Shown here: positions 13,864 through 29,692 of the stretch, one piece after another
Position numbering within the stretch: position 1 is the first letter of the stretch
Layout: every line of letters starts with the position of its first letter
From: Phytoactinopolyspora alkaliphila
GTDB taxonomy: Bacteria > Actinomycetota > Actinomycetes > Jiangellales > Jiangellaceae
DNA: 64,000 nucleotides
Assembly (NCBI RefSeq): GCF_010550695.1
Contig: NZ_JAAGOB010000004.1
Location: forward strand, 62,001 to 126,000
Reading direction: 5' to 3'
Notes under the pieces: model-generated
What the model was told of the DNA's origin: nothing
Databases searched by the model: none
Seen by the model: only the letters and a program-made list of their open reading frames with translations
Program-made: the position numbers and the translations under genes

Positions 13864-14742
13864 ATGAAACGGTGTCTCCTCACCGGCGCGGCCGGGCGCA
13901 TCGGCCGTGCCGTGCTCCGCGCGCTAGCCGATGACGGTGTGCCCACCACGGCGCTGATCCTCGACGACGCGCCTGACCTCTCCGCGGATCGGACGATCGT
14001 CGGCGACGCTGCCGACCCCCGGGTGGTCACCGAGGCACTGCGCGGGTTCGGCCCCGGCGACGTGGTGGTCCACCTCGCGGCTCGCCCCTCGCCACTCGGC
14101 GCCCTGGGGGTCGACGTCTTCGCCGGGAACGCCCGCGCCACGTACTCCGTGCTCGAGACCGCGGCGATCCACGGCGTGCGGCGCGCGGTGATCGCGAGCA
14201 GCATGTCTATCTATGGGTTCGCCTGGTCCGACGAGCCACCTGCGCCGGCATATCTCCCGGTGGACGAGGAGATGCCGTTCCGGATCGCCGACCCGTACGC
14301 CCTGTCCAAACAGGCAGACGAGAACACAGCGCGGATGATGCACCGGCAGTACGGACTCAATGTGGTGGCCCTTCGCTTCCCCTTGACCACCGACAGCGAA
14401 GCCCTGCACGCAAGAGTCCAGCGGTTCACCCGCGACCCAGCATCGGGCGCACGTGAGCTCTGGTCATACCTTCACGTCGACGACGCCGCCCGAGCTGTCC
14501 TGCTCGCTGCCAGGGCCGAGCTCACCGGAGTACACCCGCTGGCGCTCGCGGCACAAGACACGCTCGCCCCGTATCCGACCGCCGAATTGGTCCGCCAGCA
14601 TCTCCCCGGCGTGCGGCTTCGGAAGGACCTGCCGGCACGGAGCAGCCCGATCGACACCCAACGAGCTCACGATCTGCTGGGCTTCGCGCCATCGTTCACA
14701 GCCAGCGTTCCACCGCTCACCGACAGACCACAGGAGACCTGA
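13864..14742 (+). CDS. NAD-dependent epimerase/dehydratase family protein (extended SDR)
   Basis: An extended short-chain dehydrogenase of 292 residues. The nucleotide-binding motif TGAAGRIG (about residues 7-14), VVHLAARPSPLG, the Ser of IASSMSIYG and the catalytic YALSK are all visible. The size and the early GRIGRAVLRAL resemble uronate dehydrogenase-like enzymes that oxidise sugar acids or aldoses to lactones, but epimerase activity cannot be excluded. It opens the catabolic operon and its TGA overlaps the ATG of the next gene. Expression is likely under the IclR operator that ends 9 bp upstream; the ribosome site is weak (GACTGGG). Confidence 0.8.
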   Translation: MKRCLLTGAAGRIGRAVLRALADDGVPTTALILDDAPDLSADRTIVGDAADPRVVTEALRGFGPGDVVVHLAARPSPLGALGVDVFAGNARATYSVLETAAIHGVRRAVIASSMSIYGFAWSDEPPAPAYLPVDEEMPFRIADPYALSKQADENTARMMHRQYGLNVVALRFPLTTDSEALHARVQRFTRDPASGARELWSYLHVDDAARAVLLAARAELTGVHPLALAAQDTLAPYPTAELVRQHLPGVRLRKDLPARSSPIDTQRAHDLLGFAPSFTASVPPLTDRPQET

Positions 14743-16019
14743 TGGCCACAGCCGACGTACCGCCCGACGCTCCGATCTCCGAGCAACCGTGGCCGCATCG
14801 TGACGGTCTGCGGATCACCGGCATATCCGCGGTGGTCACCGCGCCCGAGGGACACCCGTTCGTCGTCGTCCGGGTGGACACGTCCGACGACGGACTCTAC
14901 GGCCTCGGGTGTGCCACCTTCACCCAGCGCTACACCGCCGTGGTGTCCGTCCTCGAGGAGTACATCGCCCCGATGATCACCGGCCGGCATCCCGGTGACA
15001 TCGACGATCTCACCCGGATGATCCACTTGTCCTCGTACTGGCGTAACGGCCCGGTCCTGAACAGTGCTTTGTCCGGAATCGATCAAGCGCTCTGGGACAT
15101 CGCCGGTAAACGAGCCGGCATGCCCGTACACGACCTGCTGGGCGGCCGGCAGCGAGCGGCGGCCACGACCTACCAGCACGCCACGGCCGCGACCGTCGAG
15201 CAGACCATCGACAAGGCCCGGGAGCTGATCAGCGGCGGAGCGACCCACGTCCGGTTGCAAACGGGTGGCCGCGGCATCGGGCACTACGGGGCACCCGGTG
15301 CGCGCGGGGCGCATCCGAACTCACCGTATCCCGACGGCTGGGATGTCCACGAGTACCTGACGGCCGTACCCGCACTGTTCGACCGGGCTCGTTCCGAGCT
15401 CGGCGACGAGGTCAACCTGATGCACGACGTGCATTCGCGGCTGACCGTCAAACAGGCCGTGATGCTGGCGCGGAGGCTGGAACAATACCGGCTGTTCATG
15501 CTGGAAGACCCGATCGCCCCGGAGCACTACGACCGTCTCCCGGAGCTACGCGCGTCCTCACCGCTACCCATCGCCGTAGGGGAGCAGCTCTCGTCGGTGA
15601 CTGACGCCGCGCGGCTCGTCGTCGGCGGAGGCGTGGACCTTCTCCGCCTGCACGTCTCGACGATCGGTGGACTGAGCCCGGCTCGCCGGTTGATGGCGCT
15701 GTGCGAGCTGCTCGGTGTCCAGACTGCGTGGCACGGTCCCGCCGACGTATCACCCGTGGGTGTCGCCGCCAACACCGCGCTGTCCGTGACCACCTCCGCG
15801 TTCGGCATCCAGGAAGGGCACGCCTTTCCTGACGTCGTGCACGAGATCTTCCCCGGAACGCTACGCATCCGCGATGGGCTGATCTTTCCGAACGACGCGC
15901 CGGGTTGGGGCATCGATGTCAACCTCGGCGAAGCCGCGAAGTATCCGCCGACTCGTCACCGGCACGACCGCTGGGCATCCCGGGTCCGACGCCCCGACGG
16001 CGGGCTGGAAGCACCATGA
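14742..16019 (+). CDS. Enolase superfamily dehydratase, ManD/RspA-like
   Basis: A protein of 425 residues in the mannonate dehydratase (ManD)/RspA subgroup of the enolase superfamily, which removes water from sugar acids using Mg2+. The capping domain ends about residue 130 (GPVLNSALSGIDQALWDIAGK, LLGGRQR). Barrel ligands are visible as LMHDVHSRLT (Asp and His), LEDPIAPEHYDRL (Glu) and IAVGEQLS (Glu), then AWHGPADVSPVG and FGIQEGHAFPDVV. The loop after HVRLQTGG is shorter than in true D-mannonate dehydratases, so another sugar acid is likely. It overlaps the previous gene by one base. Confidence 0.83.
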   Translation: MATADVPPDAPISEQPWPHRDGLRITGISAVVTAPEGHPFVVVRVDTSDDGLYGLGCATFTQRYTAVVSVLEEYIAPMITGRHPGDIDDLTRMIHLSSYWRNGPVLNSALSGIDQALWDIAGKRAGMPVHDLLGGRQRAAATTYQHATAATVEQTIDKARELISGGATHVRLQTGGRGIGHYGAPGARGAHPNSPYPDGWDVHEYLTAVPALFDRARSELGDEVNLMHDVHSRLTVKQAVMLARRLEQYRLFMLEDPIAPEHYDRLPELRASSPLPIAVGEQLSSVTDAARLVVGGGVDLLRLHVSTIGGLSPARRLMALCELLGVQTAWHGPADVSPVGVAANTALSVTTSAFGIQEGHAFPDVVHEIFPGTLRIRDGLIFPNDAPGWGIDVNLGEAAKYPPTRHRHDRWASRVRRPDGGLEAP

Positions 16020-16076
16020 CCCCGGCACGAAAGCCCGGCGTGACCGACCGTCCCACTATCGATCGAAGGATCTGAG

Positions 16077-16829
16077 ATGACCATGGACACCGTCGCATTG
16101 ATCACCGGCGCCGCGGGAGACATCGGCCGTGCGGTGGCGCGCAGACTCGCCGAACGGGGCCTCCGGCTGATTCTTACCGACCTGTCGGCCAGCAGCCTGT
16201 CCGACGTCGAAGCCGGTCTCAAGGACACCGGCGCCGACGTCCTGGCCCGGGCCGTGGACGTTACCGACGAGGACGCTGTGGCCTCGCTCGTCCGGGAGGC
16301 GCGCGAGTTCGGCCCGATCACTTCGGTGTTCAACAACGCCGGCATACCCGGAGCCTCCTTTCCCATCGCCGAGCACCCCCTCGACGACGTGCGCAAGACG
16401 TTCGACGTCAACTTCTTCGGCCTGTTCCACGTCATGAAGCACGCGCTTCCGCACCTGGCCGAGCACGACGACGCGTGGCTGCTCAACGTTTCCTCCGAGG
16501 CAGGACTCAAGGCCAACGAGCGTCGCGGGGCCTACTCCGCCAGCAAGGCGGCCGCCATCCAGATCACCCGTGCCGCCGCCCTGGAGTACGGTCGGCACGG
16601 CGTGCGGGTGAACGTGCTGTGCCCGGGACCGATCGAGGGTGACCTGATGCGCCGCAGCGAGGGTTCGATGCCGGATCCGCAGGAGCTGCGCGACCGGCTG
16701 ATCGCGAGCTCCGCGGTGCTGCGCTACGGCGAGCCCGACGAGGTCGCCAATTACGCGTCGTATCTGCTGACCGAGGCTCCCGGGTACCTGACCGGCGCCA
16801 CCCTGACGATCGACGGCTGTCGCCGATGA
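16077..16829 (+). CDS. SDR family NAD(P)-dependent oxidoreductase
   Basis: A classical short-chain dehydrogenase of 250 residues. TGAAGDIGRAVARRL is the cofactor motif, NNAGIPG the NNAG motif, LLNVSSEAGL carries the catalytic Ser, and YSASKAA the Tyr-x3-Lys. The C-terminus (YLLTEAPGYLTGATLTIDGC) is standard for 3-oxoacyl/sugar dehydrogenase-like members. In this operon it probably interconverts a hydroxyl and keto group of a sugar-acid intermediate. ATG at 16077 is 57 bp after the previous stop, and its stop overlaps the next gene. Confidence 0.85.
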   Translation: MTMDTVALITGAAGDIGRAVARRLAERGLRLILTDLSASSLSDVEAGLKDTGADVLARAVDVTDEDAVASLVREAREFGPITSVFNNAGIPGASFPIAEHPLDDVRKTFDVNFFGLFHVMKHALPHLAEHDDAWLLNVSSEAGLKANERRGAYSASKAAAIQITRAAALEYGRHGVRVNVLCPGPIEGDLMRRSEGSMPDPQELRDRLIASSAVLRYGEPDEVANYASYLLTEAPGYLTGATLTIDGCRR

Positions 16830-17245
16830 GAACCATCGCCGACCTTGAGCTTGCCGACGCCGAACGCGCGGCCGAGGCAGCGGCTGCGGAAGCGCGCGAA
16901 CGCGGGATCTCCATCACCGTCTGTGTCACGGACCGGGGTGGCATCCCGATCACCGTGCGTCGCATGGACGGAGCCAAGCCGTCCGGGGTCGAGCTCGCCG
17001 GTGCGAAGGCCTTCACAGCAGCTATCCACCATCGGCCCACCAGCGCGATCGCGCACGTTGCCGGGCCAGGGCAACCTGGTTTCGGAGTCTTCGCCCAGTT
17101 CGGCGGACGCTTCTCGGTGCTTCCCGGAGGTGTGCCGGTCGAGGTGGACGGTGTGGTCGTCGGCGCGGTCGGTGTGAGCGGCGCCGACGACGTGGGCGAC
17201 ATCGCCTGCGCCGAGGCCGCGGTGACGGCACTGGTAGCGGCGTGA
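16826..17245 (+). CDS. GlcG/HbpS family heme-binding-like protein
   Basis: A protein of 139 residues of the GlcG/HbpS (DUF336) family. ADLELADAERAAEAAAAEARERG starts a helix, SITVCVTDRGGIPITVRRMDGAKPSGVELAGAKAFTA is the family signature, and GGVPVEVDGVVVGAVGVSGAD the glycine-rich end. HbpS senses heme and iron stress, while GlcG-type members occur in glycolate and sugar-acid operons with no settled role. It overlaps its neighbours on both sides by four bases (ATGA), so it is made together with the dehydratases. It might be an accessory or isomerase-like factor of the pathway. Confidence 0.83.
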   Translation: MRTIADLELADAERAAEAAAAEARERGISITVCVTDRGGIPITVRRMDGAKPSGVELAGAKAFTAAIHHRPTSAIAHVAGPGQPGFGVFAQFGGRFSVLPGGVPVEVDGVVVGAVGVSGADDVGDIACAEAAVTALVAA

Positions 17246-18297
17246 ACGAGCGCTGGCGCTGCGCCGACGACGTGATCGACCGGATCGAGGTGGGCAGCAT
17301 CCGCAAGCCCGCCTCTCCGCTCAACGCACGGCGTTGGGGACCGTTCGAGTACGCCTCATCTGTGGAGATACACACCGCTGGCGGGCTGCGTTCGCGAATC
17401 ACCGGCCGCGCGCACGTCGGCCTCACCGACGCCGTGCTGGGTGAGCAGATCAGGTGGGCGGCGTCGACGGTGACCGGGAGGCCGCTCACCGAGCACGCCG
17501 CCATCTGGGACACGCTGCATACGGCGGTGATGCGTCAGTACATCTCGGTCTTCGCTCTGAGCGTGCTCGACGTTGCACTGTGGGACCTGCGAGCGCAGTC
17601 GCTGGGCCTACCGGTCGCCGCGCTGCTGGATCCCGGCCACGATGGCTCGGTCCAGGCCTACGCAAGCCTGCCGATCGTGGCCGAGCCACCTGAGGTGCGC
17701 CCGGCGGTCCGTCGCCTTGCCGACGCCGGCTTCGTTGGCGTGAAGGTCCATACCGCCGGAGATCTCGCCCATGACACCGCAGTGCTGAGGTGTGCCAGCG
17801 ACGAGCTGGCCGGCGGCGGCTTCCTCGCCTATGACGCGGCCGGAGGTCTCTGCCGGGACGAGGCCGCCGGCATGGCAGGACTCCTCCAGGAACTCGCAGC
17901 GCAGTGGTTCGAGGAACCTTTCCGTCAGCTCGATATCGCCGCGCACGAATGGCTGAGGGACCGCACCTCGGTCCCGCTGGCCGGCGTGGAGACCGTTCCG
18001 GGCGGGCCCGAGCTTGTCCGGCTGGCCCTTGGAACGGGCGCGTTCGATCTCGTGTGCGTGGACAGTTACTGGAAGGGTGGGATCACCGGCGCATCCGCGA
18101 CGGTTCGCACCGCGACCGAGATGGGGCGCGGCGTGGTGATGCACCACGGCGCGAGCCCGGAGATGGACCTCGCCAACATCCACGTGGCGACGGGCCTCGC
18201 CTGCGGACCGGTCGAGCTCATGCCGGCCACGAGTCCAGAGACGGCCGGCGTTGTCACCCCGCCAATCAGCGTGGGAATCGGCCTGGCCGCTGACTGA
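17242..18297 (+). CDS. Enolase superfamily protein (mandelate racemase/muconate cycloisomerase-like)
   Basis: A second enolase-superfamily enzyme, 351 residues. The barrel start SVLDVALWDLRAQSLGLPVAALL, the K-x-H at GVKVHTA, Asp in FLAYDAAGGLC, Glu in WFEEPF, and AGVETVPGG are consistent with metal and base residues of the superfamily. The C-terminal VVMHHGASPEMDLANIHVA places a His dyad. It resembles dehydratases and racemases of acid sugars; the exact substrate is not determined. It starts at an ATG overlapping the HbpS-like gene and ends about 75 bp before the IclR operator. It is well diverged from the other two family members here. Confidence 0.8.
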   Translation: MNERWRCADDVIDRIEVGSIRKPASPLNARRWGPFEYASSVEIHTAGGLRSRITGRAHVGLTDAVLGEQIRWAASTVTGRPLTEHAAIWDTLHTAVMRQYISVFALSVLDVALWDLRAQSLGLPVAALLDPGHDGSVQAYASLPIVAEPPEVRPAVRRLADAGFVGVKVHTAGDLAHDTAVLRCASDELAGGGFLAYDAAGGLCRDEAAGMAGLLQELAAQWFEEPFRQLDIAAHEWLRDRTSVPLAGVETVPGGPELVRLALGTGAFDLVCVDSYWKGGITGASATVRTATEMGRGVVMHHGASPEMDLANIHVATGLACGPVELMPATSPETAGVVTPPISVGIGLAAD

Positions 18298-18371
18298 AAC
18301 GACGCACGTCACCCACCCCTGGACGGAATCGCCATTCGGTAGTAACTTCAAGTTCAACACACGGAATTTAT

Positions 18372-18387
18372 GTTCAACATATTGAAC
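18372..18387. promoter_or_regulatory. Putative IclR operator 2 (palindrome GTTCAACATATTGAAC)
   Basis: A perfect six-base inverted repeat around CATA, 10 bp before the GTG of the IclR gene. Half-sites with the same TTCAAC sequence lie just upstream (18347-18358). Autoregulation is inferred from the near-identical site at 13840-13855 before the operon's first gene. Confidence 0.65.
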
Positions 18388-18397
18388 AGGTGGAAGA

Positions 18398-19192
18398 GTG
18401 AACGATCTGACAGGCGAACCGCGGCGGAACGGAGCACCCGCGGTGACGCGCGCCCTCCGCGTGCTGGAACTGCTGGCTGATGCCGGTGGCAGTCTCAAGC
18501 TGACCGAAGTGGCGGAACGGCTGGAGCTGCCCAAGTCCACGGCTCATCACGTCCTCGCGGCCCTGATCGACTTCGGCTGGGTGGAACGTGACCCGCACAC
18601 CCTCGAGGTCACCCTGGGGTTGCGCGCCTGGGAGGTGGGCCAGGCGTATCAGCGTGCGCAGTCGATGAGCCAGCGCGCCCGCCCGTTCATGGACGCCGTC
18701 CGGGATCAGCTGGGCGAGACGATCCGGCTCGGCATCCGCTCCGGTCGGGACAACGTCTGCATCGCCAAGAGCGAGGGCGGCAAGCATCTCGTCTTCGACC
18801 AGCGGGTCGGTGCCCGGCTTCCCGCACACGCCACCGGCCTGGGCAAGGCTCTGCTCAGCGGCCTCGACGACCGTCAGCTGGCCGAACTCTACGCGGGCTT
18901 CGAGTTCGAGCCGTTCACCGAGAACACGATCACCTCTTTGGCCGACTTGCAGGCCGAATCCGTCGCCATCCGGGAACGCGGATGGGCGCAGGACAACGGC
19001 GAATACATCCTGGGAATCCGCTGTGTCGCGGTGCCGATCCTCTCGCGCAGCGGCCAGGTCGTCGCGGCGATGTCGGTCAGCGGATCGGCGGGCCGACTCG
19101 ACGACGCCCGCTGCGACAAGGCGCTCCACGCCCTGCACGAAGCCGCCGGGCTCCTGTCCGAGCGCCTCGGCGACGACACGGACCGCACATGA
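18398..19192 (+). CDS. IclR family transcriptional regulator
   Basis: A regulator of 264 residues. The winged helix-turn-helix is at about residues 15-80 (VTRALRVLELLADAGGSLKLTEVAERLELPKSTAHHVLAAL), followed by the IclR ligand-binding domain (RAWEVGQAYQRAQ, VGARLPAHATGLGKALLSGL, GEYILGIRCVAVPI). Family members bind small acids and repress, or sometimes activate, catabolic genes. The GTG at 18398 overlies a GGTGGAAGAG site. It sits in the middle of the sugar-acid cluster, and its likely operators lie before itself and before gene 13864. Its stop overlaps the next ATG (ATGA). Confidence 0.88.
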   Translation: MNDLTGEPRRNGAPAVTRALRVLELLADAGGSLKLTEVAERLELPKSTAHHVLAALIDFGWVERDPHTLEVTLGLRAWEVGQAYQRAQSMSQRARPFMDAVRDQLGETIRLGIRSGRDNVCIAKSEGGKHLVFDQRVGARLPAHATGLGKALLSGLDDRQLAELYAGFEFEPFTENTITSLADLQAESVAIRERGWAQDNGEYILGIRCVAVPILSRSGQVVAAMSVSGSAGRLDDARCDKALHALHEAAGLLSERLGDDTDRT

Positions 19193-20334
19193 CAGCACCG
19201 ATGACGGGCACCACCGCGCGCTCCGATCTCGCCCACATGCGGGTTCTGGTCATGGAGGACATCGGCCTCATGGCGGTCGACCACCGGCCGGCGCCCGAGC
19301 CCGGACCGGGACAGGCGCTCGTCGCCGTCACGGCCACCGGAATCTGCGGATCCGACCTGCACGGCTACACCGGCGAGAACGGCCGGCGGGTCCCCGGTCA
19401 GGTCATGGGTCACGAAACCGTCGGTCACGTGGTGCGCTACCACGCGGAGCCGCCGCCGGGCGCGCCGCCGCCAGGCACCCCCGTGACGGTCAACCCGCTC
19501 ATGGCATGCGGCACCTGTGCGCAATGCTCTGCCGGCACGCTGCACCTGTGCGCCCACCGCCGGGTGATCGGCGTCGATCCGTCGTTCAGCGCCGCATTCG
19601 CGGACCTCATGGTGGTGCCCGCGGTGAACCTGGTGCCCTGGAACCCCGTCGCACCGCTGATGCACGGCGCCCTGGTGGAGCCGCTGGCCGTCGGCATGCA
19701 CGCGGCCAGCCGCGGAGGCGTCACCGAGGGTGACGTGGTGCTCGTCATCGGCGCCGGCCCCATCGGGCAGGCCGCCGTCATCGCCGCACAGCGTCTGGGC
19801 GCGGCTTCGGTCCTGGTCAGTGAACCCATGGCCAGCAGGCGCGACATCGCGCGGGAGCTGGGTGCGCAGCCCTATGACCCCACCGAGGACGATGTCGTCA
19901 CGGCCACTCGCGACCACACCGGCGGCGTCGGCGCGCCGGTCGTGATCGACGCCGTCGGTAGCTCCCGGACACTCGCCAGCGGTATCGACGCGACCGCGCG
20001 TGGCGGCCGATGTGTCCTCGTCGGCATGGGCGCCCCGAGGATCGACATCGCCGCGTTCGGGCTGTCCACCGAGGAACGCGCGCTGATCGGAGCCTTCTGC
20101 TACACGCACGACGAGTTCGCCGGCACAGCGGAATGGGCAGGTCGCCACGCCGGCGTTCTCAGCCCGCTCATCTCCCGCAGCGTAGACCTGCTCCAGGCAC
20201 CGGAGCAGTTCCGGAACCTCGCGTCGGGACAGGACGACGCTTCCAAGATCATCATCACCTTCGCCGGTACCCCCGATCCACCCCGCGGCAGCTCCGACGT
20301 TCCCGAGCGTGAGACCGGCGCACCACACCGATAG
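19189..20334 (+). CDS. Zinc-dependent alcohol/polyol dehydrogenase (MDR family)
   Basis: A medium-chain dehydrogenase of 381 residues. The catalytic zinc region reads ICGSDLHGYTG and GHETVGHVV; the structural zinc cysteines are C-G-T-C-A-Q-C then a seven-residue gap to C in LHLC. The NAD-binding motif is VIGAGPIGQAAVIAAQRLGAA. It resembles threonine/sorbitol/galactitol dehydrogenase-type enzymes and probably oxidises a sugar or sugar-acid hydroxyl. The ATG at 19189 overlaps the IclR stop. It ends with a hydrophilic tail (PDPPRGSSDVPERETGAP) that is probably disordered. Confidence 0.85.
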   Translation: MTAPMTGTTARSDLAHMRVLVMEDIGLMAVDHRPAPEPGPGQALVAVTATGICGSDLHGYTGENGRRVPGQVMGHETVGHVVRYHAEPPPGAPPPGTPVTVNPLMACGTCAQCSAGTLHLCAHRRVIGVDPSFSAAFADLMVVPAVNLVPWNPVAPLMHGALVEPLAVGMHAASRGGVTEGDVVLVIGAGPIGQAAVIAAQRLGAASVLVSEPMASRRDIARELGAQPYDPTEDDVVTATRDHTGGVGAPVVIDAVGSSRTLASGIDATARGGRCVLVGMGAPRIDIAAFGLSTEERALIGAFCYTHDEFAGTAEWAGRHAGVLSPLISRSVDLLQAPEQFRNLASGQDDASKIIITFAGTPDPPRGSSDVPERETGAPHR

Positions 20335-20399: not shown

Positions 20400-21734
20400 A
20401 TGAACAGAGCACCTGGCACCCACAACGGCGCGACGATGTCCCGCGCGCAGTTCCTCCGGCTCGGCGGCCTCACCGCCGCCGGTGTGGCCGCACCCGGCTT
20501 CCTGAGCGGATGCTCGGCCTTCACCGGGCAGAGTTCCGAACCAGGGGACGACGCCACGGCCAGCGGCCGCCTGACGATGATGATCAGTCCGGAGCAGACT
20601 ACCGGCCTGGAGGAGATATTCGACGCCTTCGAGTCCGAAACCGGTATTACGCTCGAACGTGGCAGCGCGCCCGTCGACAGTCTCAACGAGCAGCTACGCA
20701 TCCAGATCACCTCGGGCACCGCCAAGGACATGTTCCGCAGCGCGCCAGGTGGAAGCGTTCCCTCGGCGCAGCTGGTCCTGGGCCGGGAAGGCTCACTGCG
20801 CGATCTGTCCGACCAGCCGTGGGCGGGCGACGTCCCCGACGCTTTCGGGCCTCTGCTCAAGGATGGTGACGCGCTGTACGGTTTTCCGATCAGCCGCGCG
20901 GCCATCGTCATCGTGTACAACAAGGCCGTCTTCAGCGACCTGGGCGCAGAACCCCCCACCACCTGGAGCGAATTCCTGGCCGTGGGCGACGAGCTGAAAG
21001 CCGCCGACATCACGCCCATCACGTTCGGGCTGGGCAACATCGCCTATATCCAGTTCATGCCGTACGCCCTGGTCTGCTCCTTGGTCAACCGCGTGACGCC
21101 GGACATCGACGAGCAGCTGGCGGCCGGCACGGCGACGTTCTCGGACACGCCGGGCTGGCGCGAGGCGCTGGAGAAGTTCAAGCTCCTCATCGACGAGTAC
21201 ACCGACGCCTCGCCGCTCGGCATCCCGAATGACCAGGCCATGCAGGCCGTGGCCCGGGGAGATGCGGGCATGATCCCGATCATCTCCTCGAACTTCCCGA
21301 TCATCGAGGAGTTCGTCGACAACGCGGAGGAGGAGCTGGGCGCCTTCGTCATGCCGGCCACGGACAACCCCGACGACACGTGGGTCCCGTCGTCGCCGGA
21401 CAGTCTCTCGGTCAACGCCGACGCGGCGAACCCGGAGGCAGCCCTGCAGCTGCTGGAGTTCCTGGCCCGCCCGGAGCACGTGACGTCGTACAACGAGCGA
21501 ACGCAGTCCTTCCCGGGTTTGGTCGGCAACGAGGTGATCGAGACCATCATCGGCCGGGCGGTGGCCCCGTATCTCGACGCGCAGCGCGCCGCTCCGTACG
21601 CCAACCACCCGTGGCCGAACGGCGAGGTCCAGCAGACCTTCATGCAGACCGGTCAGCAGTACGTCGAAGGCTCGGTCTCCCTCGATGAGCTGTTGGGAGC
21701 GATGGACGACGCCTACGCGAAAGGCTCGGAGTGA
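20400..21734 (+). CDS. ABC transporter sugar-binding lipoprotein
   Basis: An extracellular solute-binding protein (family 1) of 444 residues. The N-terminus SRAQFLRLGGLTAAGVAAPG followed by FLSGC is a Tat-like or lipoprotein signal with the lipidated Cys at residue 38. After a short acidic linker the fold reads LTMMISPEQTTGLEEIFDAFESETG, a loop of GTAKDMFRS, and YGFPISRAAIVIVYNKAVFSDLG with the hinge motif. Such proteins bind oligosaccharides at the cell surface and feed the permeases that follow. GAGGAG lies before ATG 20400, and its TGA overlaps the GTG of the first permease. Confidence 0.88.
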   Translation: MNRAPGTHNGATMSRAQFLRLGGLTAAGVAAPGFLSGCSAFTGQSSEPGDDATASGRLTMMISPEQTTGLEEIFDAFESETGITLERGSAPVDSLNEQLRIQITSGTAKDMFRSAPGGSVPSAQLVLGREGSLRDLSDQPWAGDVPDAFGPLLKDGDALYGFPISRAAIVIVYNKAVFSDLGAEPPTTWSEFLAVGDELKAADITPITFGLGNIAYIQFMPYALVCSLVNRVTPDIDEQLAAGTATFSDTPGWREALEKFKLLIDEYTDASPLGIPNDQAMQAVARGDAGMIPIISSNFPIIEEFVDNAEEELGAFVMPATDNPDDTWVPSSPDSLSVNADAANPEAALQLLEFLARPEHVTSYNERTQSFPGLVGNEVIETIIGRAVAPYLDAQRAAPYANHPWPNGEVQQTFMQTGQQYVEGSVSLDELLGAMDDAYAKGSE

Positions 21735-22684
21735 CCGCCACCGTCTCCAGCGGGACCGCGGCGGCCCGCGGCGCGGGCTTCGGCCTGCGCCGCGGCAACA
21801 GCGCCGGCGGCCGGCGACGCCGAGTCACGGCCGTGTCGCTGTGGTTCGTCGTTCCCGCACTGGTCATCTACGGACTCGTGGTGATCTACCCCAGCATCTC
21901 GGGTGCCGTCTATGCCTTCACCGACTGGCGCGGCGGGTCATCGGCGTCGTTCGTCGGGCTGCGTAACTTCCGCGAGCTCCTGTCCGACCCCAAGACCGCC
22001 GGCGCGCTTCGCAACACGATGCTGCTGACCGTGGTCGGCACGGTGGTACAGACGGTTCTCGGACTCCTGCTCGCCCTGGCGCTCAACTCGGCGATCAAGA
22101 GCCGTAATCTCCTGCGCACGCTGTTCTTCGCCCCCGCCTTGCTGCCGCCGGTCGTCATCGCGGTGCTGTGGCAGTACCTCTACACGCCGGGCGGCGTGAT
22201 CGACAGGGTGCTGGACACGTTCGGCCTGGGCGCGCTGTCGCAGAACTGGCTGGGCAACTCCTCGGTCGCCCTGTGGTCGGTCCTCGCCGTGATCGTCTGG
22301 CAGAACGTCGGCCTCACCATGGTCATCTATCTGGCGGGACTACAGGGCATTCCCGACGAGCTGTACGAGGCCGCGTCGATCGACGGCGCCGGCACGATGG
22401 CCTCGTTCTGGAACGTCACCCGGCCGATGCTGGCGCCCGCTACCACCATCGCCGTCGCCCTCATCATGATCAGCAATCTCAAGCTCTTCGACCAGGTCTT
22501 CGTCATGACCGGTGGCGGGCCTGGCTACGCCACCGAGACATTGTCTCTGGTCATGTACAAGGAGGCCTTCGTGCTGGGGCACTACGGATACGGTGCCGCC
22601 GTGGCGCTCGTGCTCACCATGCTCGTCGCCGCCCTTGTGTTCGTCCAGGTGACGATCACGCGCCGATTCGAGGTGGAACAGTGA
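21731..22684 (+). CDS. Carbohydrate ABC transporter permease 1 (MalF-like)
   Basis: An integral membrane permease of 317 residues with six predicted helices. The cytoplasmic start is basic (GGRRRRVT), the first helix is VSLWFVVPALVIYGLVVIY, and the EAA loop reads DELYEAASIDGAGTMASFWNVTRP, which contacts the ATPase. MTGGGPGYATETLSLVMY is a family signature. It forms a heterodimer with the next gene product. It starts with GTG at 21731 overlapping the binding-protein stop. No ATPase gene lies in the cluster, so a shared MsmK-type ATPase encoded elsewhere is presumably used. Confidence 0.9.
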   Translation: MTATVSSGTAAARGAGFGLRRGNSAGGRRRRVTAVSLWFVVPALVIYGLVVIYPSISGAVYAFTDWRGGSSASFVGLRNFRELLSDPKTAGALRNTMLLTVVGTVVQTVLGLLLALALNSAIKSRNLLRTLFFAPALLPPVVIAVLWQYLYTPGGVIDRVLDTFGLGALSQNWLGNSSVALWSVLAVIVWQNVGLTMVIYLAGLQGIPDELYEAASIDGAGTMASFWNVTRPMLAPATTIAVALIMISNLKLFDQVFVMTGGGPGYATETLSLVMYKEAFVLGHYGYGAAVALVLTMLVAALVFVQVTITRRFEVEQ

Positions 22685-23511
22685 GACGCTCCGCCTACTC
22701 CGCACGCACCGGACTGACCGAACTGGTCATGATCACCGCCGCCGTGGCGTTCGTCTTCCCGGTGTACATCCTGGTGAACATCTCGCTGAAGAATCCCAGC
22801 GAGATCAGCGAGACACCCATCGGGCTGCCGTCGACCCTCTACACGGACAACTACAACCGGGCCTGGGAAGCCGCCTCGCTCGGTCAGGCGCTGATCAACA
22901 GCACCGTCATCACCACGCTCAGCCTGCTGTTGCTGGTGATCCTCGGGTCGATGGCGGCGTACGGGCTGGTCCGCGGCACCCGGCGGATCAACGGCATCCT
23001 GCTCATGCTGTTCCTACTCGGCATCATGATCCCGCTGCAGCTGGGCATGGTTCCGCTGTACGAGTTCATGCGGGACCTGGGGTTGCTCCAGACCTACACG
23101 TCGCTCATCGTCTTTCACACCGGAACGTTGCTGCCGGTGACTATCTTCCTGTACAGCGGATTCATCCGGGCACAGTCGGCCAGCTACGAGGAGGCCGCCC
23201 GGATGGACGGCGCGTCAAGCATGCAGGCGTTCTGGAAGATCGTGTTCCCGCTGCTGCGCCCCATCACCGGCACGGTCATCATCATCAACGCCATCCATGT
23301 CTGGAACGACTTCCTGACGCCGCTGCTGTACCTCGGCGGCTCGCAGTTCCAGACGCTGCCGGTCGCGATCTTCGCCTTCCAGGGCGAGTACGCCACGTCG
23401 TGGGGGCTGATCTTCGCCGGCCTGGTGGTGGCGATCCTCCCGATCCTGATCATCTACTTCCTGCTGCAGAAATACATCATCCAGGGGTTCGCGAGCGGGG
23501 TGAAGGGGTGA
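22681..23511 (+). CDS. Carbohydrate ABC transporter permease 2 (MalG-like)
   Basis: The second permease, 276 residues. Helices begin with LVMITAAVAFVFPVYILVN and the EAA motif is ASYEEAARMDGASSMQAFWKIVFPLLRP. AIHVWNDFLTPLLYLGG and the C-terminal IQGFASGVKG are typical of MalG-type permeases. The start is the GTG at 22681, overlapping the stop of permease 1, and the frame is open further upstream only as out-of-frame sequence of that gene. It ends with a GTGA overlap to the next gene, showing tight translational coupling. Confidence 0.9.
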   Translation: MRRSAYSARTGLTELVMITAAVAFVFPVYILVNISLKNPSEISETPIGLPSTLYTDNYNRAWEAASLGQALINSTVITTLSLLLLVILGSMAAYGLVRGTRRINGILLMLFLLGIMIPLQLGMVPLYEFMRDLGLLQTYTSLIVFHTGTLLPVTIFLYSGFIRAQSASYEEAARMDGASSMQAFWKIVFPLLRPITGTVIIINAIHVWNDFLTPLLYLGGSQFQTLPVAIFAFQGEYATSWGLIFAGLVVAILPILIIYFLLQKYIIQGFASGVKG

Positions 23512-24620
23512 CAGCCCTCATCACGTCCGTGGAGACGCTCGTCGCCCCGTTCTCCACCTCCGCCTGGCTGGACCAGCAGCGGATCTCCACGCCGATGGGC
23601 TGGTTCCCGCGCCACGCCGATCGGCGCTCCAGCTGGCGGGGGCCGGGCGCGGACCTGGTCTGGGTCATGATCAGCACCGACGACCCGGCCGTCTTCGGCA
23701 TCGGGCAGACGCGAGGCGGCCGGGTCACCGAGGCCCTGATCACCGAACACCTCCGCCACCTGCTCGTGGGCCAGGACGCGCTGGAGATCACCTGGCGGAC
23801 CGAGGAGCTCGCCCGCGCCGCGATGCCGTACGCCGACGGGGGTGTCAGCGCGATGGGCGTCGCCGCCTGCGAGCTCGCCTTGTGGGACCTGTCGGCCCGC
23901 GCCGCGGAGATGCCGCTCTTCCGCCTGCTAGGCGGCCGTGACGCCGCATTGCCGTACTACCTGACCTGCGCCGATCCGGACATGGTGAGTGATCTCGACG
24001 ACGAGCTGCTGGTCGGCGCAGCATTGGTCAAAGTCCCGATGGCCTACGGCCCGGCGTACGGCCGCACGGGTCTCCGGCAGAACCTGGACAGGATCGAGAC
24101 GCTGCGGTCGAAGCTTCCTGATCACGTCGAGATCGGCGTCGACTGCTTCATGTCGTGGAACGTCGGCTATGCGACCCGGTTCGCGGTGCAGGCGGAGCGG
24201 GCCGATCTCGGCCTGGCCTGGATCGAGGAGCCGCTGCCGCGCCTTGATCTCAGCGGCCATGCCGAGCTTCGCCAGCGGATCGCACCGGTGCGGGTCGCCG
24301 GAGGAGAACACGCCTTCGGCCTGGCCGACGGCCTGCGGCTGCTTGAGAGCCGAGCCCTCGACGTTCTCCAGGCCGACGTCACCTGGTGCGGCGGCCTTGC
24401 CACGGCCCGCACCCTCGCGGCTGTGGCTTCCCAGGCGGGGGTCGTGTTCGCTCCCCACCTGTCCGGCGCACATCCGTGGGCGCTCCACCTGCTCGCGGCC
24501 TGTGGACCCGAGGTGCTCGCCGAGGTTCTGGTAGGTGTCGGCGCACCGGCAGCTGCTCCGCGGCCGGACACCTCACCGGGGGTCGGGCTGGACCCGGCGG
24601 ACCTGGGATTCCGGCAATGA
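23508..24620 (+). CDS. Enolase superfamily dehydratase, L-rhamnonate dehydratase-like
   Basis: A third enolase-superfamily enzyme, 370 residues. The barrel carries ALVKVPMAYGP, then VDCFMSWNVGYATRFA, WIEEPLPRLDL, VAGGEHAFGLADGL and DVLQADVTWCGGLATARTLAA, an order and spacing that closely resemble L-rhamnonate dehydratase. The C-terminal APHLSGAHPWALHLLAAC supplies the His region. It probably dehydrates a 6-deoxy- or related sugar acid to a 2-keto-3-deoxy acid. GTG at 23508 overlaps the permease stop; there is no independent promoter. Confidence 0.83.
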   Translation: MTALITSVETLVAPFSTSAWLDQQRISTPMGWFPRHADRRSSWRGPGADLVWVMISTDDPAVFGIGQTRGGRVTEALITEHLRHLLVGQDALEITWRTEELARAAMPYADGGVSAMGVAACELALWDLSARAAEMPLFRLLGGRDAALPYYLTCADPDMVSDLDDELLVGAALVKVPMAYGPAYGRTGLRQNLDRIETLRSKLPDHVEIGVDCFMSWNVGYATRFAVQAERADLGLAWIEEPLPRLDLSGHAELRQRIAPVRVAGGEHAFGLADGLRLLESRALDVLQADVTWCGGLATARTLAAVASQAGVVFAPHLSGAHPWALHLLAACGPEVLAEVLVGVGAPAAAPRPDTSPGVGLDPADLGFRQ

Positions 24621-25681
24621 GCCCATCGGTGCGGGTCGCCGTCGTCGGCGCGGGATGGTGGTCGAGCAGCCACCATCTGCCGGCCCTCGTCGCTCACCCC
24701 GGGGCGGAGCTCGTCGGGGTCGCCGACAGCGACAGTGCCCGTGCCGCCCGAGTAGCCGCGAGCTACGGTGTGCCGGCCTTCTCCTCCCTGGACGACGTCG
24801 TCGCCGCAGGCAGGGCCGAAGCGGCGGTCATCGCCACTCCGCACGCGACGCACCACGCCCTGACCAGGCAGGCACTCACCCAGGGGCTGCATGTCCTGGT
24901 CGAGAAGCCGCTAGCGCTGACCTCAGGCGACGCGTTCGACCTGATGCGTCTCGCGGAGTCCCGGAGAAGACACCTCTCCGTCGGCTACACCCATCAGTAC
25001 GAGGACGTGGCCGATGCCGTGCGGGCCGCGGTCCACGCCGATATCGGCGAGCTCGTTCAGGTAACGGTCGAGTACTCGTCACGAGCCGGCAGGCTGTTCG
25101 CGGCCGCCGAAGCCGGCGCCGCGTCTACCACCGTTGACGTCCCGCCGGGACAGCCGCACCCGGAGGCCTACTCCGCGGCCAACGGGGGCGGACAGGCTCA
25201 CACACAGCTCACGCACGCGTTGGGCATGCTCTGCTGGACCACTGGCCGCGAGCTCTCCGACGTGGCCGCCTTCACCGATCACCGCGGGTTCGAGGTCGAC
25301 GTCTCCGACGTCGCGGCGTTCACCCTGTCCGGCGGCGCGACCGGGGTGGCCGTCGCCACCGGAGCCACACCCGCGGGCGTGCCGGTCCGCCAGCACATCC
25401 GCTATGCCGGCACCGAGGGCACCGTGTCCCACGACCTGTTCCGCACCGAAGCACATGTCCATCGGACCGACGGCGCCACCCGCGCTGTCCGGCACGACCA
25501 GCATCAGGCGCCGTACCGAGCAGGCGAGCCGGCGCGCGCCTTCATCGATCTGGTGCACGGAGACGGCCCCAACCGTGGGCCCGCGCGCCCGGCGGCCGCG
25601 GCCGTCGCCGCTGTCGAAGCGATCCTCGAATCCGCCCGGCGTGGCACACCGGTCCGCGTCGCCCAGCTCCCACCACTCTGA
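24617..25681 (+). CDS. Gfo/Idh/MocA family oxidoreductase
   Basis: An NAD(P)-dependent sugar oxidoreductase of 354 residues. The N-terminal Rossmann motif is VAVVGAGWWSSSHHLPALVAHPGAELVGVAD, and the EKP motif, VLVEKPLALTSGDAF, marks the catalytic Lys. The C-terminal half holds the substrate-binding sheet (ANGGGQAHTQLTHALGMLCWTTG). It usually oxidises or epimerises a sugar or inositol hydroxyl and could act on the imported product. The ATG overlaps the stop of the dehydratase. 70 bp separate it from the secreted-protein gene. Confidence 0.85.
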   Translation: MSPSVRVAVVGAGWWSSSHHLPALVAHPGAELVGVADSDSARAARVAASYGVPAFSSLDDVVAAGRAEAAVIATPHATHHALTRQALTQGLHVLVEKPLALTSGDAFDLMRLAESRRRHLSVGYTHQYEDVADAVRAAVHADIGELVQVTVEYSSRAGRLFAAAEAGAASTTVDVPPGQPHPEAYSAANGGGQAHTQLTHALGMLCWTTGRELSDVAAFTDHRGFEVDVSDVAAFTLSGGATGVAVATGATPAGVPVRQHIRYAGTEGTVSHDLFRTEAHVHRTDGATRAVRHDQHQAPYRAGEPARAFIDLVHGDGPNRGPARPAAAAVAAVEAILESARRGTPVRVAQLPPL

Positions 25682-25751: not shown

Positions 25752-28700
25752 ATGACCACCCTGTCAAGCGCTCGACGAGCGGCAATCGTTCTCACTGCCG
25801 GCGCCATGGCCGTGACCGGCCTGACCGCCGCGACCGCGGCCGCAGATCAGACTCCAGCTCAGCTCCCGGCTGTCGCGCAGTTCGATCCGCACTCGGTGCG
25901 CCTGACCGACTTCACCGGGCCGGAGCAGACGATCGCGCCGTACCTGGCCCTGGTCGCGCACGTCGCGAACGGCGTCGTGGACGATGATCCCGAGCTGTAC
26001 GGCTTCATCGACTGCGCGTGCTGGCGAGTAGGCGTCGACGCCCCAACGAATGCCAGGGTCCAGGAGAACGCGCTGACCATGGCGTACTTCTATTCGATGG
26101 ACCGGCCGTGGAACCCGTACTACGGCGACGACGCGCTCCGGCTCCGGCTGGAAGCAGCACTGACGTACTGGATGTCACTGCAGAGCCCCGAGGGAGCCTT
26201 CCCCGAACTGCCCCATGACACCCGGTCCAGGCCCGGGACCGCCTTCTCCCTCGATTTCCTCGGCCGAACACTCCTGGACGTGCTCGACCAGGGCCCCGGT
26301 ATCGACCCCGACGTCCGGGCCGATGTGGAACAGTCGATCCGACGGGCGGCGGAGTGGTTCCTGACCGATGAGACCCAGGTCTGGAGCGAGTACGGCGAGA
26401 TCTTCTCGAACCAGGTGGCCGCGGGGCTGACGGCGATCAGCGGGCTGATCCACCGGCTCGACGACCCGGAGCTCACGGCGCTGTTCCGTACCCGAGTCGA
26501 CTACCTGGCCGAGCGGATGCAGAGCCCGGCCGGTCACTATTACGAAGAGGCTGTTGGGCACCGGTATTCGGTCCAGGTCATGAGCAAGGACCTCGGGCAC
26601 TGGGCGGATCCGGAGACGCAGCCGGTGATCGATGTGATGCAGGAGCGCTACCTCGACTGGCTGCAGTATCAGGCCCTGCCCGAGCCGGACGGATCCGGAT
26701 TCTTCATCAACACCGCGCTCGATGCCCGGCACTCCCGCTGGAACTACGAGGAGGTCATGGCGATAGGCGCGGGGCATTCGTGGAGCGCCCGCCTGGCCGC
26801 CGCGCGGGCGTTCGGAGACTCCGCCGAGAACGTCGCGCAGGCTCGAGACCAGTGGCGCGCCGGAGGCTGGGCAACGTCCGTGGCTCCGGTGGTTGAGCAG
26901 CGCCGGACCCGGGTGGACCCGGTGCTGATCCGCGATGTCTTCGCCGACGAGCACTATCCGACCGCTGCGGAGAAAGCTGCCGCGACCGCGGCTTTGCGGC
27001 CGATGTCCGAGGACGGGTTCACCCACCACGCCACGTCCGGGAAGGTCGATCTGACGTTCCTCCACGCCCAGCGTGGCGGCCTGTTGGTTGGCATGGCGTG
27101 GGGACCGCAGCCGAACTTTCCGCCCGGACGGCCTTCTCAACGCACCGACTGGGACTATCCCCGGCACGGCCGGCAGTATCTGTGGCACCAGGACACCGGC
27201 ATGGTGATTCAGTCGCACAACGCTGTCCGCGCCGGCGGGCCGAGCGTGACCGGCATCGACGACGAGCTGGTGTGGTCCACCATCGTCCCTGGCAGCGGCC
27301 TCGTGGACGCGTATCTCGATCACGACGTCTCGTTCAGCCAGGACGGCGACCACGTGGCCGCCCCCGAGGACACCGCGACCGGATCCGTGTCCGCCACCTC
27401 CCGCCGCCATGACGGCGGCGAGGGCCCCGTGGTCACCACCACCGTGGACGACGACGGACTCACCGTCGCGGTGCGCTCAGCCGGTCGTTTCATCGAGCGG
27501 CTCCCCTTGGCCCTGCGACACGGTGACACCATGGCGTGGCTGGACGAGGATGGCGTTCCCCAGGTCACCACCACGACGGCGGACGAGGCGACCGGGCTGT
27601 TGATCGGGCGAGGCGCGCAAGCCATCGAAGTTCGCTGGGACAGGCCGCGGCAGGCAACCGTCCGACCCACATCGGTGGTCTTCCCGCAGACGCCCGCGCT
27701 CGGCACGGACCCGGACGTGGTCGGCACGCTTCACCTTCTCGACATCACCGGGGTTGATGAGCTGACCTACCGGGTCGGCGTCGTCGACGACGCCTGCCTG
27801 AACTCGGATCTTTCACCCACGGTGGTGATCGGCGGTATCGACAGCAAGGTCGAGAACCGCGATCGAGGCGACGGCTGCACGGTGCTCGACCTGATCGCGG
27901 CCGGCGATCCCTGGCCGGGCCACGGCACTTTCGTCCGCCATGTCGACGCGGTGACCCGGGAGCTTCGGTCGGCGGATGTTCTCAGCGCCCGCGAGGCGGC
28001 GGCGGTCCGAGCCGCCGCTGCCGCTTCGGCCATCGGCGACGATCGCGCCGCCATTCAGCTTGACGCTACGGAAGTACTCGCGGGCAGCGTCGTCACCGGC
28101 ACAGTGTCCGGCGACGGCATTGACTGGGCCAGGATCGCCGGCCCGTGCGTGGATGGCGGTCAGGTCGAGGTGCCCGGAGCAGGTTCGATAGAACTCCTCG
28201 TCGCCGAGACAACGCTCGTCGGGCCGTGCGAACTGAGCTTGACCACACGCTTCACCGACGGCGGATCTGAGCTCGACGAAGCAACTGTCGACATCGTCCC
28301 CGATGCCGAAGGCGTGGTCTTCCGGGACAGCTTCAGCGGCGACGCCGCAGGGGCGTGGCAGGTATTCGACGGGAACTGGTCGATCGACACCGGCGCCTAC
28401 GTCCAGACGGACGCATCCCTCACCGGCAAACGCACCGGTGTACGGGATCTTGGATTCACCGACGGATTCATCGAGTTCGACGTCGAGATCGTGGACGCCG
28501 CCGGTGACCCGACCAACTGGGCAGGTGTCCAGCTGCGCACCACGCGGTTCGGTGACAACTTCACCGACTCGGGCTACATGGTGTTCATGCGGCAGACCGG
28601 TGAGGTGTTCGTCTACAAGGCCGGTGCCGGAACCATTGCGCGCGGTGACGTGCCCGCCAGCGTGCCGAGCCGGATCCGGGTCGAGGCCCAGGGTCCTGAG

Positions 28701-28829
28701 CTGACGATCCTCGCCGACGGCGAGCACGTGGTAACTGCCACCGATGACGAGTTCACCAGCGGTTCGGTGCATCTAGTGACCGGGCGTACCCATTCGCGGT
28801 TCGACAACGTCGTCGTCGGCCAGAAGTGA
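25752..28829 (+). CDS. Secreted multidomain polysaccharide-active protein of unknown family
   Basis: A secreted protein of 1025 residues. A Sec signal (ARRAAIVLTAGAMAVTGL to TAAAD) ends about residue 32. Residues about 45-430 are helical, with an ordered array such as ALTYWMSLQSPEGAFPEL, FSLDFLGRTLLDVLDQGP, and GHYYEEAVGHRYSVQVMSK, suggesting an alpha/alpha toroid. Residues about 430-700 look beta-rich (GLLVGMAWGPQPNFPPG, HQDTGMVIQSHNAVRAGGPS). The last part (about 856-1025: FRDSFSGDAAGAWQVF, SGSVHLVTG, FDNVVVG) resembles a LamG/concanavalin-like sugar-binding domain. This pattern recalls polysaccharide lyases or hydrolases, but I recognise no catalytic family. It would release substrate for the ABC importer. 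Confidence 0.72.
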   Translation: MTTLSSARRAAIVLTAGAMAVTGLTAATAAADQTPAQLPAVAQFDPHSVRLTDFTGPEQTIAPYLALVAHVANGVVDDDPELYGFIDCACWRVGVDAPTNARVQENALTMAYFYSMDRPWNPYYGDDALRLRLEAALTYWMSLQSPEGAFPELPHDTRSRPGTAFSLDFLGRTLLDVLDQGPGIDPDVRADVEQSIRRAAEWFLTDETQVWSEYGEIFSNQVAAGLTAISGLIHRLDDPELTALFRTRVDYLAERMQSPAGHYYEEAVGHRYSVQVMSKDLGHWADPETQPVIDVMQERYLDWLQYQALPEPDGSGFFINTALDARHSRWNYEEVMAIGAGHSWSARLAAARAFGDSAENVAQARDQWRAGGWATSVAPVVEQRRTRVDPVLIRDVFADEHYPTAAEKAAATAALRPMSEDGFTHHATSGKVDLTFLHAQRGGLLVGMAWGPQPNFPPGRPSQRTDWDYPRHGRQYLWHQDTGMVIQSHNAVRAGGPSVTGIDDELVWSTIVPGSGLVDAYLDHDVSFSQDGDHVAAPEDTATGSVSATSRRHDGGEGPVVTTTVDDDGLTVAVRSAGRFIERLPLALRHGDTMAWLDEDGVPQVTTTTADEATGLLIGRGAQAIEVRWDRPRQATVRPTSVVFPQTPALGTDPDVVGTLHLLDITGVDELTYRVGVVDDACLNSDLSPTVVIGGIDSKVENRDRGDGCTVLDLIAAGDPWPGHGTFVRHVDAVTRELRSADVLSAREAAAVRAAAAASAIGDDRAAIQLDATEVLAGSVVTGTVSGDGIDWARIAGPCVDGGQVEVPGAGSIELLVAETTLVGPCELSLTTRFTDGGSELDEATVDIVPDAEGVVFRDSFSGDAAGAWQVFDGNWSIDTGAYVQTDASLTGKRTGVRDLGFTDGFIEFDVEIVDAAGDPTNWAGVQLRTTRFGDNFTDSGYMVFMRQTGEVFVYKAGAGTIARGDVPASVPSRIRVEAQGPELTILADGEHVVTATDDEFTSGSVHLVTGRTHSRFDNVVVGQK

Positions 28830-29692
28830 TCATCGACGGCCACTGCCACTCGTGGCGACGCTGGCCCTACGACCCGGGAGTGCCCGATCCGGACACCCGC
28901 GGGTCGGTGGAGACGCTGCTGGACGAGCTGGACCGGCACCAGGTGGAGCGCGCCCTGGTGATCTGTGCCCGGATCGGTGCCACAGCCGGTCCGGAATGCC
29001 GCAACGACGACAACAACGACTACGTCGCGGCGGCCGTCCGCCGGCATCCAGATCGCCTGGTGATGGCGGCCGATGTGGACAGCCGCTGGCTCCCGGAGCA
29101 TCACACGAGCGGCGCAGCCGCACGGCTTCGGGAGACCGCCACGCGGTATGGCATCTCCGCGTTCACCCACTACGTGGGCGATGAGGACGACGGATGGTTG
29201 ACCACCGACGATGGCACGGAGTTCTTCGCCGCGGCGGCCGATCTCGGCCTGATCGCCTCGCTCGCGGTCACACCGTCCTGGTTCGGCGCGGTAGGCCACA
29301 TCGCCCGGCTCCTTCCGGGCCTGCCGATCTTGTTGCACCATTCCGGGCTGGTCCGGCTGTGGTCGTCGTCGTTCGAGGACGACATCCGCACGCTCCTCGA
29401 GTTGGCAGAGGCACCGAACGTGTTCGTCAAGGTTCCGGGGTTCCATTACCTGAGCCGGCCGTCGTTCGAGTATCCGTTCCCCGAGGCGTGCACGCGGGTG
29501 CTCCGGCCGCTGGCCGACACGTTCGGGGCACACCGGCTGATCTGGGGATCGGACTTCCCCGTTGCGCAGTCACACCTCACGTACCGGCAGTCGTTGGCGC
29601 TGGTCCAGGACCACACCCCATTCTGGACCGATGCCGAACGGTCACAGGTCATGGGTGCGACGCTGGAGGGTCTTCTCGCGCGTCGTCTCTGA
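28826..29692 (+). CDS. Amidohydrolase family protein (COG3618 lactonase-like)
   Basis: A TIM-barrel hydrolase of 288 residues. The N-terminal DGHCHSWRRW carries the H-x-H metal ligands, YVAAAVRRHPDRLVM and LPILLHHSGLVRL the later histidines, and LIWGSDFPVAQ the catalytic Asp. It matches the COG3618 group that contains L-fuconolactonase and rhamnonolactonase, so it may open a sugar lactone produced by the dehydrogenases of this cluster. GTG at 28826 overlaps the secreted-protein stop. Its 3' end overlaps, on the opposite strand, the end of the sigma factor gene. Confidence 0.83.
   Translation: MIIDGHCHSWRRWPYDPGVPDPDTRGSVETLLDELDRHQVERALVICARIGATAGPECRNDDNNDYVAAAVRRHPDRLVMAADVDSRWLPEHHTSGAAARLRETATRYGISAFTHYVGDEDDGWLTTDDGTEFFAAAADLGLIASLAVTPSWFGAVGHIARLLPGLPILLHHSGLVRLWSSSFEDDIRTLLELAEAPNVFVKVPGFHYLSRPSFEYPFPEACTRVLRPLADTFGAHRLIWGSDFPVAQSHLTYRQSLALVQDHTPFWTDAERSQVMGATLEGLLARRL

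Follow-up and report, generated by a model that had tools for sequence, protein, structure and literature searches.

Probable two-operon gene cluster of Phytoactinopolyspora alkaliphila with a putative IclR site, a secreted protein of predicted polysaccharide-lyase fold and a putative sugar-acid pathway

We analysed a 64-kb stretch of the Phytoactinopolyspora alkaliphila genome (hereafter the window; the genome comprises 5.5 Mb in 33 contigs), in which fourteen genes, numbered g01-g14 in order along the + strand, occupy positions 13864-29692. With somewhat better than even confidence, we read these genes as an IclR-controlled regulon of two operons for an acidic (uronate-containing) glycan. 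The secreted member, g13, is most likely a lyase of unassigned family that feeds an oxidative sugar-acid pathway. The cluster is more than a chance arrangement, because 13 of the 14 genes carry Pfam families, g13 has homologues at 51 or more loci, an eight-gene core recurs in a congener and a tandem site is confined to the cluster. Its features are as follows.

13820-13855, + strand: tandem site 1, putative IclR operator, 8 nucleotides (nt) before g01
13864-14742, + strand: g01, extended-type short-chain dehydrogenase/reductase (SDR) of Epimerase fold that may act on a sugar or uronate as a dehydrogenase (PF01370, NAD-epimerase type; nearest PDB entry 4id9, E 3.3e-17)
14742-16019, + strand: g02, enolase-superfamily enzyme, ManD-subgroup-like (PF13378/PF02746, MR_MLE; PDB 3tw9, E 2e-105)
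16077-16829, + strand: g03, classical SDR (PF13561; homologue with 59% identity in L110, a cluster of genome G174)
16826-17245, + strand: g04, HbpS-like protein (PF03928, E 1.7e-31)
17242-18297, + strand: g05, divergent mandelate-racemase-type enzyme (PF13378, MR_MLE; best PDB entry 1rvk, E 1.8e-15)
18352-18387, + strand: tandem site 2, putative IclR operator, 10 nt before g06
18398-19192, + strand: g06, IclR-family regulator (PF01614, PF09339)
19189-20334, + strand: g07, Zn-dependent alcohol dehydrogenase, start at 19189 or 19201 (PF08240/PF00107)
20400-21734, + strand: g08, solute-binding protein (SBP_bac_1) of a sugar ATP-binding cassette (ABC) importer, start at 20400 or 20436 (PF01547)
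21731-22684, + strand: g09, ABC permease (BPD_transp_1; PF00528)
22681-23511, + strand: g10, ABC permease (BPD_transp_1; PF00528)
23508-24620, + strand: g11, enolase-superfamily (MR_MLE) enzyme like L-rhamnonate dehydratase (RhamD), with Arg25 replacing a RhamD His (Pfam, NCBIfam and PDB comparison)
24617-25681, + strand: g12, Gfo/Idh/MocA oxidoreductase (GFO_IDH_MocA; PF01408; nearest PDB entry 3moi, E 2e-21)
25752-28829, + strand: g13, secreted protein of 1025 residues, with predicted alpha-toroid plus beta-sandwich (about 49-685), linker region and CBM66-like C-terminus (about 869-1025)
28826-29692, + strand: g14, amidohydrolase-type (Amidohydro_2) putative lactonase (PF04909, E 1.2e-25)

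A tandem site shared by two probable operons

A first-pass annotation of this DNA had described fourteen same-strand genes here, and both their coordinates and the gene types it named agree with our assignments, g13 being the exception in Pfam. Because 13 of the fourteen served to train our codon-based gene caller, its calls are not independent evidence for them. Of the 13 gene junctions, nine are overlaps of 1 or 4 bases, while at the remaining four the genes stand 57, 100, 65 and 70 nt apart. The co-directional run stands, but on the basis of the gaps and the two tandem sites it looks like two operons, g01-g05 and g06-g14, and not a single one. None of the fourteen genes encodes an ABC ATPase.

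Comparison of the gaps with those of related clusters revealed a 36-bp tandem site, GTTC-N16-GTTC-N8-GAAC, ahead of both g01 and g06. A genome-wide count of the strict pattern gave these two occurrences in the cluster and no others, whereas base composition alone predicts 0.33 per genome; the backwards control gave none, as did 100 shuffled windows. Three related clusters carry such sites as well. In L104, a strict site precedes an alcohol dehydrogenase gene by 8 nt, and a second site, with a 17-nt spacer, lies between the IclR and RhamD genes; L106 has two imperfect sites, one between the lactonase and IclR genes and one before a GH5 (glycoside hydrolase family 5) gene; and in L110 a single strict site separates a BNR_4 gene from an importer. 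These counts (2, 2 and 1) compare with simulated-sequence means of 0.02-0.03. The IclR genes of L104, L106 and L110 are 54, 65 and 42% identical to g06, which itself scores as an IclR-family protein (HTH_IclR 66.3 bits, cut-off 22; IclR_C 152.9 bits, cut-off 24). Read most simply, these sequences suggest binding of the tandem sites by g06 and its relatives. Because the site is shared, confined to the cluster and recurrent in three related clusters that also carry an IclR homologue, g01-g05 and g06-g14 probably form a single IclR regulon, in line with the regulon first proposed for them.

Several points weigh against this assignment. The tandem pattern was picked by inspecting these same gaps before the genome-wide count, so the counts are not a blind test. 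The shorter pattern GTTC-N8-GAAC is weak, with 4 occurrences in the window against 0.95 expected and 2 of the 4 within genes, and the related cluster L108 has no tandem site. It is also conceivable that g01-g05 and g06-g14 are unrelated neighbouring catabolic operons that have a regulator site in common by chance or through recent duplication, which would suit the separate conservation of the two halves (homologues of g06-g12 and g14 in L104/L106, homologues of g03-g05 in L110). We regard this as improbable, since the same layout stands before both halves and is confined to the cluster in this genome, and since L110 too has a tandem site near its g03-g05-like genes. The alternatives weighed here and below address different parts of the question, and their likelihoods do not sum to one.

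Predicted fold and conserved residues of g13

The secretion signal of g13 was judged by eye, and its fold was taken from AlphaFold predictions. For the 1000-residue mature protein, the model had a predicted local distance difference test (pLDDT) score of 79.9 and a predicted template modelling (pTM) score of 0.71; for the 668-residue catalytic part, the scores were 86.8 and 0.90. Both models matched toroid polysaccharide lyases (PL families) and have their two-domain fold, an alpha-toroid followed by an antiparallel beta-sandwich. The whole model gave PL17 at Z 17.3 and PL33 at Z 17.1 as its best rows; those of the catalytic part were PL33 (Z 17.2, root mean square deviation (rmsd) 5.8, 490 residues aligned) and PL17 (Z 16.6, rmsd 6.6, 499 aligned). 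No single lyase family is favoured, as Z values within 1 of each other are tied. In Foldseek, ranks 1-46 were all taken by lyases of the same fold or by a related human enzyme, dermatan sulfate epimerase. The C-terminus of the model matched CBM66 (carbohydrate-binding module family 66; Z 15.2, rmsd 3.0, 140 residues aligned, 21% identity), with other galectin/LamG-like domains scoring about as high.

In a 45-row alignment of the g13 family, Asn220, Gln221, Tyr272 and Arg326 (precursor numbering) are invariant, among several others. Published reports give the key residues as N238, Y291 and H444 for PL33 (PMC11848413) and N192, Y246 and H401 for the PL35 enzyme GAGase II (PMC12088678). The Asn-to-Tyr spacing is 52 in g13, 53 in PL33 and 54 in PL35, a match by spacing and not by superposition, drawn with these two families only. 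An alternative mapping on the PL8 residues Asn175, His225, Tyr234 and Arg288 (PMC8733870), in which the Tyr-to-Arg spacing of 54 equals that of Tyr272 and Arg326, gave way to the PL33/PL35 mapping, since the g13 family has no conserved His in the toroid.

By sequence, g13 stands apart. Its identity to the toroid lyases PL33, PL17, PL35, PL12 and PL8 is about 9%, with no significant relation, and it differs from them further in its non-conserved beta-sandwich His and its additional linker and CBM66-like module. We found no match in Pfam or NCBIfam at E<=0.001 and no sequence relation to a named family in Pfam, NCBIfam or PDB, the collections covered; CAZy's own models were not among them. Candidate relations were rejected one by one: the best PDB hit by phmmer had E 0.48; an hmmsearch of the 45-row family against PDB gave as its top match a squalene-hopene cyclase (E 0.00055, summed across two short stretches), which we judged repeat-like; a Pfam search of the 45 rows up to E 1 gave for g13 only PF06439, at the C-terminus and below cut-off (E 0.0066); and comparison of the g13 profile with the PL8 protein from L036 gave a probability of 0.3%.

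The case for a lyase has to be set against several observations. Foldseek TM-scores (template modelling scores) to the lyases are low, at 0.35-0.50 with large rmsd, and helical models reach a best Z of about 14 as background. Taken by itself, the toroid matches cellobiose 2-epimerases, at Z about 16 over roughly 300 residues, as well as unsaturated glucuronyl hydrolases, at Z about 14. Given these low scores and toroid-only matches, we place the two-domain match above any single score. His479, the candidate for the beta-sandwich lyase His, is retained as His in only 34 of the 45 rows; the other 11 show Asp, Asn, Ser or Thr at this position, with Asp in the three closest homologues. Hence either some members of the family use a different base or g13 is no classical lyase. 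The toroid residues Glu58 and Glu105, invariant in 45/45 rows, would also suit a glycosidase.

These residues open a different reading, in which g13 is a glycoside hydrolase or epimerase built on the same toroid, the glycan is neutral or mixed, and the enolase-superfamily enzymes take aldonates made by the dehydrogenases. It gains from the toroid-only matches and the varying His, from weak GH127 Pfam matches in 7/45 members (best E 0.0066), from a GH127 structure at Foldseek rank 47 and from the lack in this genome of a match to PF07470, which we take to be GH88/GH105. The two-domain matches, over 470-500 residues, are instead to lyases and one uronyl epimerase, the Asn-Tyr spacing suits these as far as PL33 and PL35 show, and PL8 genes lie near 3 of 51 g13 homologues among the matches listed. 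We consider this reading unlikely, and g13 a probable lyase on its model. The models support the glycan-releasing secreted protein first predicted here, giving it a uronate-lyase fold and a CBM66-like module; rhamnose or fucose in its glycan stays conjectural.

Distribution and neighbours of g13 homologues

A 691-residue g13 query matched 23 of 296 genomes of the class. Long matches to the catalytic part came from nine other genomes (eight of the genus Jiangella and one other); the remaining 13 had short stretches only, in 12 cases within the segment after the catalytic part. A segment of g13, residues ~670-790 around GCTVLDLI...HGTFVRHV, recurs at four further places in large proteins of this genome and also in relatives, and is probably a general module of secreted proteins. 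Among named GTDB genomes, g13 homologues occupy at least 51 loci, in actinomycetes, Opitutaceae, Planctomycetaceae, Dyadobacter and others. Two of these loci (L049 and L080) are near-identical regions, and the 45-row alignment omits seven that are partial, over-long or frame-split (L044, L062, L067, L075, L082, L083 and L084).

We counted neighbours over these 51 loci, 12 of which are under 13 kb, among the matches listed. Permeases of sugar-importer type lie near g13 homologues at 31 loci (tblastn E<=1e-15, identity down to 25%) and are directly upstream and co-directional at 18. Homologues of g09 at 58-64% identity stand beside g13-family genes at five loci (L042, L054, L060, L061 and L075), and also in five Jiangella-type stretches (L113, L117, L118, L119 and L122). 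Glycan-degradation genes comprise GH2 mannosidase-like genes (8 loci), another GH2 (4), PL8 (3) and GH78 (2). PF12831 (FAD_oxidored) genes are near 28 homologues, 23 of one type and 5 of another (for example, L039:5529-7199 and L042:5434-6804). Pfam annotation covered 30 neighbour open reading frames out of 1007 called in 71 loci; these were chosen by eye, so the families are not an unbiased census. PL8, GH78, BNR_4 and RHGA_epim neighbours were rejected as proof of substrate because each lies near few homologues (PL8 3/51, GH78 2/51, BNR_4 only in L110, RHGA_epim in L045). The neighbourhood supports glycan degradation, without fixing the substrate.

Two points count against our reading. The permease count stands without random 20-kb stretches as a control, and homologues of g11, g12, g14 and g05 lie beside g13 homologues at 0 of the 51 loci, the short ones included, so that the joining of g13 to this pathway is seen only in this cluster.

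A conserved eight-gene core

Homologues of g06, g07, g08-g10, g11, g12 and g14 lie in one stretch of a genome of the same genus (G200:C36), at 46-65% identity. The same eight-gene core is present in Jiangella endophytica (G192:C20), at 47-55% for g06, g07 and g11 and 25-35% for the importer, g12 and g14; the importer similarity there is generic only. Both core clusters carry tandem sites, like the window cluster, and both differ from it in having no g01-g05. The G200 cluster has no g13 and in its place an 829-845-residue protein and a GH5 enzyme; the J. endophytica cluster has the 829-845-residue protein and a GH38 enzyme. A further contig, G075:C290, carries homologues of g07, g11 and g12 at 57-69%.

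Close relatives of g11 (E<=1e-70) were found in 4 of 393 genomes of the class, the window's own included, all Jiangellaceae. Close relatives of g05 (E<=1e-40) were found in 2/393, the other being G174 of the genus Jiangella, in whose cluster L110 genes resembling g03, g04, g05 and IclR adjoin an importer and a BNR_4 protein. Conservation outside this strain, on which the first-pass annotation had made its proposal depend, thus extends to the eight-gene core but not to the full 14-gene set, which was seen nowhere else among the genomes and loci examined.

Two other proteins of the related clusters deserve mention. The 829-845-residue protein accompanies core genes in three of them (L106:12868-15405; L104:17465-19954, - strand; and L109); it gave no significant Pfam or PDB match and no evident signal peptide by eye, and the window has no homologue. 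The BNR_4 protein (L110:2174-4438, - strand) has a weak PF06439 match at its C-terminus and lies near the g03-g05-like genes and the strict tandem site.

Intracellular enzymes

Pfam supports the first-pass description of a dehydrogenase-lactonase-dehydratase set with a sugar importer. Among the rows listed (for g03, the best 25 of 233), no cluster enzyme reached an NCBIfam cut-off. The best model for g02 was ManD (NF043051; 351.1 bits, cut-off 550), and its ManD-type PDB relatives extend down to E 2e-105. The nearest model for g11 was L-rhamnonate dehydratase (NF011968; 178.7 bits, cut-off 393), and the best for g14 was L-fucono-1,5-lactonase (NF052480; 27.1 bits, cut-off 400). In the DDHI-TP motif, g11 and its three close orthologues all have Arg at the position that is His in 2oz3 and 2i5q, two structures of L-rhamnonate dehydratase. 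The positions that we take to be metal-binding and His/Asp sites are kept in all four.

The identity of the best g11 and g14 models agrees with the earlier suggestion that the cluster follows the known dehydrogenase-lactonase-dehydratase scheme for 6-deoxy sugar acids, those of L-rhamnose or L-fucose, as do a GH78 rhamnosidase directly after the g13 homologue in L042 (GH78-like genes in 2/51 listed loci), a rhamnosidase-domain protein in L076 and the non-phosphorylated L-rhamnose route on record in PMC3870299. Yet the g11 and g14 scores fall far under their cut-offs and the His-to-Arg change is present in 4/4 sequences, so that a rhamnose- or fucose-containing glycan is conjectural and we hold a 6-deoxy pathway to be doubtful.

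Candidates for downstream enzymes occur elsewhere in the genome (11 DHDPS, 5 FAA_hydrolase and 2 HpcH_HpaI matches). Against their weight as evidence, these families are common, being present in 14, 11 and 10 of 14 control genomes, and the candidates are therefore merely permissive. The missing PF07470 match also tells against our reading, in that it disfavours the standard unsaturated-uronyl route.

Just upstream of the cluster, a MerR-type regulator fused with a glyoxalase-like domain is encoded at 12879-13682 (- strand). An Eco57I-type DNA methyltransferase domain protein is encoded at 9919-11775 and adjoins a 303-residue gene without a Pfam match (11818-12729).

Proposed pathway and comparison with known systems

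In the pathway that we favour for an acidic glycan, g13 would be secreted, stay attached to the glycan through its CBM66-like module and cleave it by beta-elimination, with the Asn as carboxylate neutraliser and the Tyr in proton transfer. The freed sugars would be taken up by the g08-g10 importer, its ATPase supplied in trans, and oxidised inside the cell to lactones or sugar acids by g12, g07, g01 and g03. The lactone may be opened by g14 and the acids dehydrated to 2-keto-3-deoxy acids by g11, with g02 and g05 acting on other stereoisomers; aldolases or hydrolases encoded elsewhere would then cleave the products. An imported sugar or acid would alter the grip of g06 on both tandem sites, most simply by derepression, and switch both operons on.

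The first-pass annotation knew of no described system with this gene set, and none appears among the literature matches listed. UxuA is not known to be an enolase-superfamily enzyme. According to a report on Haemophilus influenzae L-gulonate catabolism (PMC5788505), that pathway likewise combines a sugar-acid dehydrogenase with a mannonate dehydratase, which is UxuA-type and 73% identical to E. coli UxuA; the cluster differs in its three enolase-superfamily enzymes and its secreted enzyme. The non-phosphorylated L-rhamnose pathway, given in PMC3870299 as a 1-dehydrogenase, lactonase, L-rhamnonate dehydratase and aldolase, has the same enzyme types as the cluster. Compared with that description, the dehydrogenase of the cluster would be of Gfo/Idh/MocA, Zn-dependent alcohol dehydrogenase or SDR type, its dehydratase and lactonase lie under the family cut-offs, no aldolase is present in the cluster, and a secreted lyase-like enzyme and an IclR gene are added.

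With confidence just short of even, we suggest that g13 founds an undescribed polysaccharide-lyase family in which something other than the customary beta-sandwich His serves as general base, and that it is connected here to an undescribed sugar-acid pathway with a changed RhamD-like dehydratase pocket. As part of the same proposal, this family would extend across actinomycetes, Opitutae-type bacteria and other groups, with frequent links to sugar ABC importers. For work on acidic glycans, a large secreted family that has lyase architecture but lacks a family name would supply a further activity to test. The tandem sites would offer a direct way to the inducer, and the cluster provides three sugar-acid dehydratase-type enzymes of unassigned specificity in a defined pathway context.

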